A stretch of DNA of 36,420 nucleotides from positions 147,202 to 183,621 of the forward strand of contig JAUYCZ010000028.1 in assembly GCA_030704795.1 (NCBI GenBank), read 5' to 3'. The stretch is from a bacterium. Lineage in GTDB: Bacteria > Patescibacteriota > Minisyncoccia > Minisyncoccales > GWA2-46-15. Below the pieces are notes generated by a model. That model searched no databases and had not been told where the DNA came from. It was given only the letters and a program-made list of their open reading frames with translations. Positions within the stretch are counted from its first letter, which is position 1. Every line of letters starts with the position of its first letter. The translations under genes were made by a program, and so were the position numbers. Shown in pieces: positions 8,632 through 36,420 of the stretch.

Positions 8632-8702
8632 CGGGCTGTAGTACAACAGTAGTATTTGCCCTTGGGGTGGGTAAGACCTGGGTGCAACTCCCAGCAGCCC
8701 GA
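8632..8702 (+). tRNA. tRNA-Pro (anticodon GGG), noncanonical D/T loops
   Basis: Acceptor CGGGCTG/CAGCCCG (C1-G72, A73); D-stem GTAC/GTAT; anticodon stem TGCCC/GGGTA with loop TTGGGGT; T-stem CTGGG/CCCAG with loop TGCAACT; no encoded CCA. Confidence 0.85.
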
Positions 8703-8767
8703 CACTTCGACTTTGCTCAGTGCCTTCGGCCAAGACTTTTTGACTAATACTATTTAATTAAAAAAAC

Positions 8768-10436: not shown

Positions 10437-10475
10437 CCAAAAACGCCCGACCGAAAAGGTATAGGGCGTTTTTGG
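10437..10475. terminator. Bidirectional rho-independent terminator
   Basis: CCAAAAACGCCC ... GGGCGTTTTTGG, 12-bp stem; T-tract on both strands; inner ACC-GAAAA-GGT hairpin. Confidence 0.88.
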
Positions 10476-10477
10476 TT

Positions 10478-10612
10478 GGTCCTGCCACCTTTCCGGCAGA
10501 TTAATCCGGTAAAAAATTCAAGTGGGTGCCCGCTCCCCCGGCCCGAAAGCCGAAGGAATAAAGGCTCCCGAAAAAAGGTATTGCCAGAATCTACCTAGAA
10601 AGGAACAGGACC
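10478..10612 (-). ncRNA. Rod-shaped structured RNA, 6S RNA (ssrS)-like candidate
   Basis: Minus strand: closing stem of about 25 bp (GGTCCTG/CAGGACC, CCTTTC/GAAAGG, GGTAGATT/AATCTGCC, CTGG/CCGG), symmetric 14/14-nt central bubble, apical stems GGGAGCC/GGCACCC and CCTTCGGC/GCCGGGGG; G-U pairs fix the strand; promoter upstream, terminator downstream. Confidence 0.7.
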
Positions 10613-10618
10613 GCTTTC

Positions 10619-10648
10619 ATCCTATCCCAAAAGCAAATAAGTGGTCAA
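10619..10648 (-). promoter_or_regulatory. Sigma70-like promoter of the structured ncRNA
   Basis: Minus strand TTGACC (10648..10643)-18 nt-TAGGAT (10624..10619), then 6 nt to the first base of the closing stem at 10612. Confidence 0.65.
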
Positions 10649-10677
10649 ATTGTGGGAGGTCGGACCTCCCACAATTT
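10647..10677. terminator. Near-perfect inverted repeat at the 3' end of the adenylate-kinase-like gene
   Basis: AAATTGTGGGAGGTC-G-GACCTCCCACAATTT, 15-nt arms. Confidence 0.75.
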
Positions 10678-11758
10678 AAAGATTCAAAGTTTGAGCGAGT
10701 TGTTTTATTAAAGAAACGACCACGGCCGGCGCCAAAAGACTTACCGACGGAACGCCATCGTCATCGGGAAAGATCCAGGGTTTTTCCAAGACCCTGACCT
10801 CTTTTACTTGCTCCAGCCATTCATAGCTGTACTCGGGAGTGATTTCGTACTGATCGGCTAGCTCTAACGATCGGTCAACCGGCAAGTGGTTCCTTAAAAG
10901 AATCTTGGGAACGCCGTGCAGTTTTAAAGCCTCCTTCATCAGGTTCTCTTCTGCCGTCAATCTTTCCCTTAAGGCTTCGAGGCCCAGGTTATCCCCTTCC
11001 TTGCCCCGGTTTAATCTTTGCCCCCGGCAAGCGGGATTGTCACAGATCAAATAAAACTCTTTCTGGACTTCATCGTAACCAACTCTTTTGGTCGGATTGA
11101 GTTTGAGATTAGGCGTCGTCTGGCACCTGGGGCAGACGACCCGATACTTCATTCTTTCTTCAATTACTTTCTCCGGAATATCGATCAGAACAAAAATGTC
11201 TGGGTCATCCCGGTAACCGATTAAATCACGAAAAAACAAGGAATAGGAAATCTGATCCAGATTGCGAGGAAAGCCGTCGAGAAAAAGCGCTTTTTTGCCG
11301 AACTGGGCGATCTCCCTCTTAACCAAAGCTAAGATAAACTCAGAAGGCAAAAGCTTTTTGACATCGCGCCCTAAAAGAGCCTCCAGAGCCTCTTCAATCG
11401 AGATATAACCTCGGTAGTTTTTCTCCAAGAATTTAACCAATTCATCTTTTTCCGGCCCGTTGGCCAAAGCGGTCTGATGAACTCTCCGGACTAAATCTCC
11501 AATCGAGACTTGAGCCGTTTTTTCCGGCCCGAAGATCTCCAAAAAAAGTTTGGCATAGGTTCCCTTGCCCGAATTCTTCTTGCCGAGCAGATAGACAATA
11601 AAACTGTTTTTAACTAAATACTCCCGGATCTTCTCAATCTCCGGCCCGACTTTCAGATAAAAATATTCCTGCCTTTGGACGGGGTCAGCCAATTTAAAGG
11701 TTTGAGCCACGCCTTCAATCTTAGTTTTGTGGAAAGGAAAGTTCATAGTTTTCTCCAT
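10676..11758 (-). CDS. Adenylate-kinase-like nucleoside monophosphate kinase with Zn-type lid (start may be at the internal MNFPF)
   Basis: GKKNSGKGTYAKL P-loop; FLDGFPRNLDQ; lid CPRC...CDNPAC; 360 aa, longer than typical Adk. Confidence 0.85.
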   Translation of the reverse strand: MEKTMNFPFHKTKIEGVAQTFKLADPVQRQEYFYLKVGPEIEKIREYLVKNSFIVYLLGKKNSGKGTYAKLFLEIFGPEKTAQVSIGDLVRRVHQTALANGPEKDELVKFLEKNYRGYISIEEALEALLGRDVKKLLPSEFILALVKREIAQFGKKALFLDGFPRNLDQISYSLFFRDLIGYRDDPDIFVLIDIPEKVIEERMKYRVVCPRCQTTPNLKLNPTKRVGYDEVQKEFYLICDNPACRGQRLNRGKEGDNLGLEALRERLTAEENLMKEALKLHGVPKILLRNHLPVDRSLELADQYEITPEYSYEWLEQVKEVRVLEKPWIFPDDDGVPSVSLLAPAVVVSLIKQLAQTLNL

Positions 11759-33554: not shown

Positions 33555-34019
33555 TTAATAACTTAATTCTAATTGGTCGCCTGGCTTTAAATCAATGGCC
33601 CGGGCCCGGCCGCCGGAGATTTCCCAGACGTAACGGGCATTTTGTCCGGGATTGATAACCGGACAGGGATCCTGACGACAGGGCGTCGCTGTTTCTTTAA
33701 TGAAGATGACTCTCTGCTCTTGGTCGATCCAGATTATGTCCAGAGAAATTAAGGTATTCTTCATCCAGAAGGGCAGTTCTTTTTCTTGGTCATAGATGAA
33801 AAGCATGCCCTGGTCTTGGCCCAGCTCTTTCCTAAACATCAGCCCTCTCTGCCGCGTCTCCGGCGTCCGGGCCAATTCAACAAAAAAACACTTCTCGCCA
33901 AAACAAACCGTTCCAGTTTCCTTTCTCCCAAAGAAGATAAAAACGACGGCAATAAATCCTATTGCCAAAACGAAAGAAACAACAACCTTAAGCGCTATGC
34001 TTGATTTCAATGACATCAC
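33555..34019 (-). CDS. DUF192 family protein
   Basis: RQRGLMFRKELGQDQGMLFIYDQEKELPFWMKNTLISLDIIWID; RYVWEISGGRA. Confidence 0.93.
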   Translation of the reverse strand: MMSLKSSIALKVVVSFVLAIGFIAVVFIFFGRKETGTVCFGEKCFFVELARTPETRQRGLMFRKELGQDQGMLFIYDQEKELPFWMKNTLISLDIIWIDQEQRVIFIKETATPCRQDPCPVINPGQNARYVWEISGGRARAIDLKPGDQLELSY

Positions 34020-35070
34020 CGTCCTGGATCAGATAGTCTTTGCCTTCGGTCCGGATCAGACCCTTTTCCCGCGCCGGAACAAAACCGCCGGCCTTGATCA
34101 AATCGGCGTAAGCGATGACCTCGGCCTTGATGAAATGACTTTCAAAATCAGAATGGATGACGCCGGCGGCCTGAGGCGCCCGCGTTCCCTTTTTAACGGT
34201 CCAGGCGCGAGTTTCATCCGGACCGGTCGTAAAAAAGGTCAAAAGATTTAGAAGGTCGTAAGATTTTTTTATCAAAACATCAAGTTCGGACTCCGCCGGC
34301 AAACCCAGAGAAACCCTTTCCTCGCGGACAAAAGACGAGTCCGCCGCTTCAAACTCGGTCAAAACGTCAACGATCAAGAACGGAAAACCCTTCTCTTTAA
34401 AAGAATTGATGACGACGGGATCCACCTCCTCATCCCGGCCATTTAAGAGATAAAGCCGGGGTTTGGCGCAGAGCAACTGTGAGTTCTGCATCAGCCCTCT
34501 TTCTTCTTCGCTGAAGTCCGCGACGTCCAAAAGCCGCCCCTGATCTAAGAAACCCTTGATCTTCTTTAGCGCCTCTGTCTCCTTGGCCGCTTCTTTTTTG
34601 CCGGCCCTAACCTCGCCTTCCAGATGATCCAGCTTTTTCTGAATCGTCTCAAAATCTTTCAAAACCAGTTCCGTCTCGAGGATCTCTTTTTCCTGGAGAG
34701 GATCGATGCCGGTTTGAGTGTTAATGACGTCAGTCTTTTGAAAAGCTCGCAGCAGATAAATGACGGCGTCCACTTCGCGGATGTGGGAGAGAAATTTGTT
34801 GCCTAACCCTTCGCCCTGGCTGGCGCCCTTGACCAAGCCAGCAATATCGACAAACTCGATGGTGGTATAGATTTTCTTGGCCGATTTTTCCCGCTCGGCT
34901 AATTTATCCACCCTTTCGTCGGGCACGCCAACGACGCCGACATTGGGATCGATGGTGGCAAAAGGATAATTGGAACGGTCCACCTGTTTCCGGGTCAAGG
35001 TCTGGAAAAGGGTGGATTTGCCCACGTTGGGCAGGCCGACAATGCCGATGGATAGTTTTGTACTCGACAT
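33988..35070 (-). CDS. ychF: Redox-regulated GTPase/ATPase YchF
   Basis: [78 protein letters not shown]. Confidence 0.97.
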
Positions 35071-36420
35071 GGTTTATGTTTTCTATGGGTATGTAGCCGT
35101 ATACCTGTAATCCGTTTGGCGAACCCATGATTTTATCTACGGTGTTCCTAATTATGACTTTTCTTGCCTCAAAATTCAAGTTTTGAAGGGCTTTTACCGC
35201 TTTCTCGGCGAATGACTCTACTTCGCCCTGGCCGGGCAGAGTAGCTTCATTTATTTGTCCTCGTTCCACCTGTGCTTTTATAATCTGCTCCTCAAGGGAA
35301 GAGGCTCTCTCTCGTAATGGATTAGTGTATTCCTTCAGCCTCTCTATCGAAAATAGGCCGGCGCCATAAGCCTTAGCATAACGATCTTCTTCTTTCCTTA
35401 ATCTAACGATCTCTTTCTTTATGGAATCAACATCCGCCGTCGAACCGCTTGTTTGACTACGCCTCTCATCCGACCAACGCCTGATCTGTTTAAATAGTAA
35501 CTCTGGAGAACTCATAAGCTTTGAGATTTTTTGCCAAACCAGTTTATCGGCGATTCTCGCATTTATTCCTTTTTCGACACACGTTGGCGGCAAGGGAAAA
35601 CTATGAGTTCTATTTGTGCATCGGTAATATAAATACTTCCCGTGCTGGGGGCCTTCGCCAGCTCTCCTCTCTCCACAGCTGCACCATATCTTGCCGGCAA
35701 GTAAATATTCATTCTTCTTATTTCTCTGGCATAAATCAAAGTTAGTTTTCAGTTGCGTTCGCGCTCGCGTAAACAAATCTCTGTCAACAATCACCGGCAC
35801 GGGAATCTTGGATGCGATCCATTCTTCTTCTGGTTTTATTCTCCGGCTGCTCTTTTTCATTTTCCTATATTTTTCTCTATTGGTAGGATTTTCTGGAACT
35901 ACGGCATACGAGCTGCCCCAGCGGGCTTCTCCTATGTATGCTCTGTTCCTTAGCATGGTGGTTAGGGTGCTTGTATTCCAAACGCCCCTCTTACTTTTTC
36001 GTGGCTTTATACCTAATTCCTGCAATCTTTTGACCACCTTTCTAAAAGTTAAGCCCTCTCCGGCAATCCAACCAAATATCATTTTTACAACCCTCGCTTC
36101 GGCCGGGTTTATTTCATAATAACCGTGAATTTTCTTTTCTTTATCTCCTCGGATGTAGGTATATCCATAGAGCGCTTCACTTACTAATAAATGCCCCTCT
36201 CTGACTTTCCGAAGTTTACCTAATCGGAAACGTTCAGAAATTTTTGCTCTTTCATATTGAGCAAACAAACCCTTAACTCCATATAGAATTTTGTCCTCCT
36301 CGTTTTTAGGAGTAGACGTGGTAACAAATAGTACTTCTATCCCAGCTTCTCGCAGTTCATCCATAACCAATTCCTGATATGAATATCTACGGGCTAATCT
36401 ATCCGGGTCGTATATCAAAA
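34904..36420 (-). CDS. Serine recombinase (resolvase/invertase family, recombinase domain plus zinc ribbon), N-terminus beyond window edge
   Basis: IYDPDRLARRYSYQELVMDELREAGIEVLFVTT; YGYTYIRGDKEKKIHGYYEINPAEARVVKMIFGWIAGEG; LRNRAYIGEARWG; LLAGKIWCSCGERRAG; coiled-coil tail. Confidence 0.92.
   Translation of the reverse strand, partial: LIYDPDRLARRYSYQELVMDELREAGIEVLFVTTSTPKNEEDKILYGVKGLFAQYERAKISERFRLGKLRKVREGHLLVSEALYGYTYIRGDKEKKIHGYYEINPAEARVVKMIFGWIAGEGLTFRKVVKRLQELGIKPRKSKRGVWNTSTLTTMLRNRAYIGEARWGSSYAVVPENPTNREKYRKMKKSSRRIKPEEEWIASKIPVPVIVDRDLFTRARTQLKTNFDLCQRNKKNEYLLAGKIWCSCGERRAGEGPQHGKYLYYRCTNRTHSFPLPPTCVEKGINARIADKLVWQKISKLMSSPELLFKQIRRWSDERRSQTSGSTADVDSIKKEIVRLRKEEDRYAKAYGAGLFSIERLKEYTNPLRERASSLEEQIIKAQVERGQINEATLPGQGEVESFAEKAVKALQNLNFEARKVIIRNTVDKIMGSPNGLQVYGYIPIENINHVEYKTIHRHCRPAQRGQIHPFPDLDPETGGPFQLSFCHHRSQCRRRWRARRKGG

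Follow-up and report, generated by a model that had tools for sequence, protein, structure and literature searches.

Location and predicted fold of the RNA

The window, by which we mean the whole 36,420-nucleotide stretch of Patescibacteria DNA analyzed, carries on its minus strand an adenylate-kinase-family gene (10676-11758) and, directly downstream of it on the same strand, a gene for a rod-shaped RNA of about 135 nt that we annotate as a probable 6S RNA. The features of the locus are as follows.

8632..8703, plus strand: tRNA-Pro (GGG), the only tRNA of the window, lying 3' of the 6S gene
10437..10475, minus strand: intrinsic terminator, 12-bp stem and T tract, beginning 2 nt after the rod
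10478..10612, minus strand: probable 6S RNA rod, about 135 nt (from the fold z score, the match to model R3, and covariation)
10506..10522, minus strand: 3' side of the central bubble, expected to hold the "-10-like" strand and the site of the 3'-CB hairpin (role inferred, PMC8876501)
10519..10534, minus strand: 3' half of the conserved 6S core, GAGCGGGCACCCACTT; CCCAC is invariant in the class alignment
10556..10569, minus strand: start of the apical arm and 5' half of the conserved 6S core, GGGAGCCTTTATTC
10580..10612, minus strand: 5' strand of the closing stem and start of the 5' central bubble; expected pRNA template (6S anatomy, PMC8876501, laid on the fold)
10619..10624, minus strand: -10 element TAGGAT, 18-nt spacer (N18); TACAAT in the nearest relatives
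10643..10648, minus strand: -35 element TTGACC, read from the sequence; kept in the genus and enriched in relatives
10648..10676, minus strand: terminator-like hairpin that follows the adenylate-kinase-family gene and separates it from the RNA gene

In the predicted structure, a closing stem leads through a 14/14-nt central region into an apical arm, and the 12-bp terminator follows. Folding of the transcript 10618-10437 gave -90 kcal/mol, compared with -56.0 ± 4.3 kcal/mol for dinucleotide shuffles (z = -8.0), and none of 200 shuffles was equally stable. The minus-strand rod drawn by hand at 10612-10478 in the first-pass annotation therefore holds up: the sequence is as described, its stability is far outside that of the shuffles, and homologues occur in relatives. 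The 14/14-nt bubble of that annotation stands as a region, but a few weak pairs are closed within it in the minimum-free-energy fold, most of which are opened by the centroid. A closing stem, a large central bubble, and an apical arm with a terminal loop are the parts of a 6S rod, and all three are present.

At the window edge, a recombinase-like open reading frame (ORF), recognized by eye from its translation, occupies 34904-36418 (minus strand); its 3' end overlaps, in a different frame, the start of a YchF-like GTPase ORF (33988-35070).

Homologues and relationship to known 6S RNAs

Three further genomes of the genus gave BLAST matches to the RNA; one same-genus genome (90% completeness) had no match, another (64% completeness) matched at E 0.11 only, and blastn against plasmids returned no match. 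A covariance model of the four genus sequences (R1) matched 40 of 142 class genomes at E ≤ 0.1, and a second model (R2), made from 32 class sequences with the window sequence among them, had matches at E ≤ 0.001 in 63 of the 142 class genomes and in 54 of 145 from the phylum, with few second matches.

The first-pass annotation had suggested running the Rfam 6S model on the locus, and this did not detect the RNA directly: Rfam 15 returned nothing relevant for the region, either at the gathering cut-off or at E ≤ 10, and RF00013 (6S) had no match anywhere in the 637-kb genome. The matches that did appear in the region at E ≤ 10 were spurious and came from two hairpins, the terminator and the one of the adenylate-kinase-family gene. 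The window RNA thus lies below the RF00013 gathering cut-off, which is an annotation criterion and not a biological definition, and so do 13 of the 14 Patescibacteria genomes with any RF00013 match. When 145 genomes of the phylum were sampled, RF00013 matched 14 at E ≤ 0.1 and 11 at E ≤ 0.001, one of them over the cut-off, and no class member sampled there gave a match. We read the shortfall as a limit of model sensitivity rather than as the lack of a biological feature.

The relationship becomes visible when models are matched in both directions. None of the sequences used to train R2 came from a genome with an RF00013 match in that survey, and R2 found the same interval and strand as RF00013 in 11 of the 14 RF00013-matching phylum genomes (G017, G022, G024, G044, G047, G054, G056, G079, G093, G097, and G149); a local R2 search recovered all 13 fetched RF00013 loci and added G009, bringing the count to 12 of 14 genomes. 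The exact core pattern occurs at 55 loci across GTDB, mostly in Patescibacteria, apart from a small number of Chloroflexota-type records and a single Thermoleophilia MAG. Two of these loci, L122 (the Thermoleophilia MAG, 77.4 bits) and L071 (Saccharibacteria, 48.8 bits), score above the RF00013 cut-off of 46.4, and R2 matches the same place in each. Conversely, a covariance model built only from 13 RF00013-recognized loci of other genomes (R3) matched exactly 10612-10478, its sole match in the 637-kb genome (91 bits, E 6.5e-20), with the qualifications that only L005, L071, and L122 of its loci exceed the Rfam cut-off, most members being below it, that L071, L098, and L122 were located via the core pattern of the window RNA's family, and that its column layout (not its sequences) is shared with R2, whose training set includes the window sequence. 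Alignment A9, guided by R2, was adopted because MAFFT aligned the distant RF00013 loci too poorly to give a full consensus. On E. coli ssrS, R2 gave no meaningful match, and R3 ranked the gene first, but at E 0.2.

The core GGGAGCC...GGGCACCCACYU of the window RNA is the 6S consensus core: the Rfam consensus carries GGGagccc...gggcaCCCACCUgg, and GGGAGCC / GGGCACCCACCU flanks the bubble in the window RNA as the conserved core does in 6S RNAs. Because the models match in both directions and the Rfam consensus core is shared, we file the RNA as 6S. A different structured RNA that only resembles 6S, whether an Ms1-like binder of core polymerase or an unrelated rod-shaped small RNA, would fit the lack of an Rfam call on the window RNA and the precedent of Ms1, a 6S-like rod able to bind core polymerase instead (PMC9130861), but we consider it improbable, given that the model matches link the window RNA with RF00013 loci in both directions and that both have the GGGAGCC/GGCACCCACCU core. 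Ms1, moreover, is about 300 nt long, has additional hairpins at both ends, and binds the core enzyme without sigma (PMC9130861), whereas the window rod measures 135 nt between its promoter and its terminator.

Promoter, terminator, and neighboring genes

The TTGACC-N18-TAGGAT promoter reported in the first-pass annotation can be read directly, with 6 nt between the end of the -10 element and G10612, and the 12-bp terminator placed 2 nt past the rod is seen both in the sequence and in the fold. All three genus relatives retain a counterpart, TTGACC-N18-TACAAT, together with a terminator hairpin and T tract; compared with this TACAAT, the -10 element of the window RNA gene (TAGGAT) is the weaker one. 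Upstream of the RNA, and at the expected distance from it, 63% of 52 relatives have a promoter pair with 9 or more of the 12 consensus bases; the figure is 0% for the opposite strand and 6.4% for shuffled upstream sequence. A T5 tract lies within 50 nt downstream in 38 of the 52, compared with 7 on the reverse side, although this set includes a few duplicate records of one locus or shared flanks, so the loci are not all independent. Judged from its sequence, the RNA gene would form an independent transcription unit with a housekeeping promoter and a 3' end of its own. The genome encodes a primary-sigma-type factor: a 429-residue frame carries a Sigma70_r3 domain (E 8.2e-22).

Since the RNA lies directly downstream of the kinase gene on the same strand, it could be taken for a cis-acting 3' untranslated region or attenuator of that gene. 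This is very unlikely: a terminator-like hairpin (10676-10648, touching the -35 element of the RNA gene) stands between the two, the RNA has its own promoter, and it is found in other contexts in other classes. In genome G005, the RNA is present in another gene neighborhood from which the kinase gene is absent, so the RNA is not part of the kinase gene.

Covariation

Compensatory changes are visible already among the four genus sequences. In the model-fitted alignment, which leans towards structure, 90.5% of pair cells hold standard pairs (61.4% when shuffled, at most 52% when slid) and 42 of 46 base pairs have changed on both sides. A structure-blind MAFFT alignment served as the control; on it, RNAalifold recovered the apical arm, with 12 of 15 pairs compensatory, and did not recover the closing stem, because MAFFT cannot align it. 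The class alignment shows no variation in CCCAC and in one GG, and almost none in GCGG. The comparison with relatives proposed in the first-pass annotation thus came out in favor of its rod, as fold, promoter, and terminator recur and compensatory base changes are abundant.

A chance fold, or coding sequence in the form of a 91-aa plus-strand ORF (10522-10797) that is open on the other strand and has a counterpart in relatives, is refuted by this covariation and can be set aside, given also the stability of the fold (z = -8), the breaking of the frame by apical-loop indels, the antisense overlap of the ORF with the kinase gene, and the preservation of structure, rather than frame, in relatives across the phylum.

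Synteny with tRNA-Pro

The tRNA-Pro of the window lies 1.8 kb from the 6S gene, in the arrangement found in relatives. A tRNA-Pro is present within 1.5 kb of 38 of 91 distinct related rods, on the 3' side in all 38 and never on the 5' side, and 32 of the 38 have the anticodon GGG; the 251 kb around related rods contain 16 tRNAs of all other isotypes combined. The loci with this neighbor include RF00013-positive ones of other classes (L006 and L009-L013) and Saccharibacteria, and further loci with a 3' tRNA-Pro are L017, L018, L022, L023, L075, L081, L085, L093, L095, L103, L116, and others. As the gene order is common to RF00013-positive loci, it supports orthology independently of the RNA sequence, and it is apparently old in the phylum.

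In some lineages, the tRNA-Pro follows on the same strand 4 to 90 nt past the 6S RNA, and more than half of these gaps are without a T5 tract. Spacing of 4 to 40 nt on the same strand, often without a clear terminator, was observed at L048, L075, L081, L085, L093, L095, L103, L116, L006, L009, and L012. Short gaps that often have no T5 tract suggest co-transcription; 6S and tRNA-Pro may be co-transcribed at these closely spaced loci, with the 6S 3' end coming from tRNA processing. We offer, tentatively and with some doubt, a broader scenario in which Patescibacteria would have retained an ancestral 6S gene that Rfam largely misses, with the order 6S then tRNA-Pro conserved; the two could be co-transcribed in several lineages, with RNase P, in cutting the tRNA, also making the 6S 3' end, and in the window's class the pair would have moved apart and the 6S gene acquired a terminator of its own.

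The 6S label, which the first-pass annotation had inferred, is supported by the profiles matching both ways, covariation, the core motif, the promoter and terminator, and the tRNA-Pro synteny. With high confidence, then, we regard the window RNA as the 6S RNA (ssrS) of this organism, predicted to be expressed from its own sigma-70-type promoter up to its own terminator, a promoter mimic expected to sequester the holoenzyme until pRNA synthesis releases it.

Proposed mechanism

Characterized 6S RNAs imitate an open promoter with the bubble and the helices on either side of it; a -10-like element lies in the 3' strand of the bubble, and polymerase is freed when pRNA is transcribed from the 5' bubble into the closing stem (PMC8876501). 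By analogy, the most likely function of the window RNA is promoter-mimicking sequestration of the sigma-70-type holoenzyme, undone by pRNA synthesis. The rod would act as an open-promoter mimic: upstream "-35" DNA would be represented by the apical arm, the non-template "-10" strand by the central bubble's 3' strand, and the downstream duplex by the closing stem. Polymerase carrying the primary sigma factor would bind the rod and be withheld from DNA promoters; with the 5' side of the bubble as starting template, it would then synthesize a short pRNA reaching into the closing stem, thereby opening the stem and releasing the enzyme. On 6S anatomy, pRNA synthesis is predicted to start near the U at 10580, beginning at about AUUGCCAGAAUC, and the expected product would start near AUUGCCAG. 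Expression and growth-phase control, with accumulation in stationary phase, would likewise be expected from 6S biology.

For gamma-proteobacterial 6S RNA, the release element has been described as a hairpin that forms within the 3' bubble (PMC8876501). The corresponding region reaches -3 kcal/mol or lower in 78% of 59 relatives, a few of these counts being other local hairpins. The hairpin, in the columns after ACCCAC, is predicted in most Patescibacteria relatives and is absent in a few; in the window it is weak (-0.7 kcal/mol), and a small alternative hairpin is possible in a constrained fold. This weakness suggests that the pRNA release path in the window's genus may be different or weaker.

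6S RNA in Patescibacteria and comparison with known systems

In the library searched, we found no paper discussing 6S RNA in Patescibacteria. RF00013 matches 11 of 145 phylum genomes and the lineage model 54 of 145 (both at E ≤ 0.001), so apparent absences of 6S are largely a detection problem; 6S is under-annotated across Patescibacteria, and the main value of the window RNA is in showing so. RNA-based global regulation of polymerase thereby becomes testable in reduced, host-dependent Patescibacteria cells, and the 6S/tRNA-Pro gene order provides a synteny handle for locating more 6S genes. As a separate observation, PMC9130861 describes 6S RNA as widespread among bacteria with the exception of Actinobacteria, and the 77.4-bit RF00013 match at L122 (5964-6120, minus strand) is in a Thermoleophilia, and hence actinobacterial, MAG despite that reported absence; this match may come from contamination.

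The window RNA resembles the 6S/SsrS family of RF00013 in its rod of closing stem, central bubble, and apical arm, in the GGGAGCC...GGGCACCCACYU core, in having its own sigma-70-type promoter, and in the reciprocal covariance-model matches. It differs in being shorter (135 nt, compared with 187 model positions), in scoring below detection, and in its weak 3'-bubble hairpin, which is strong in the 6S RNAs of L071 (Saccharibacteria) and L122 (Thermoleophilia). Its surroundings differ as well: E. coli 6S adjoins ygfA/fau, whereas the window RNA is near an adenylate-kinase-family gene and tRNA-Pro, and at several other Saccharibacteria-type loci the tRNA-Pro follows in the same orientation after about 30 nt. 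Ms1 of Actinobacteria is alike in being a 6S-like rod bound by RNA polymerase. The sequence of E. coli ssrS is too distant for R2, and B. subtilis 6S-1 is likened to the window RNA by mechanism only; by analogy with both, promoter mimicry and pRNA-driven release (PMC8876501) would be expected here too.
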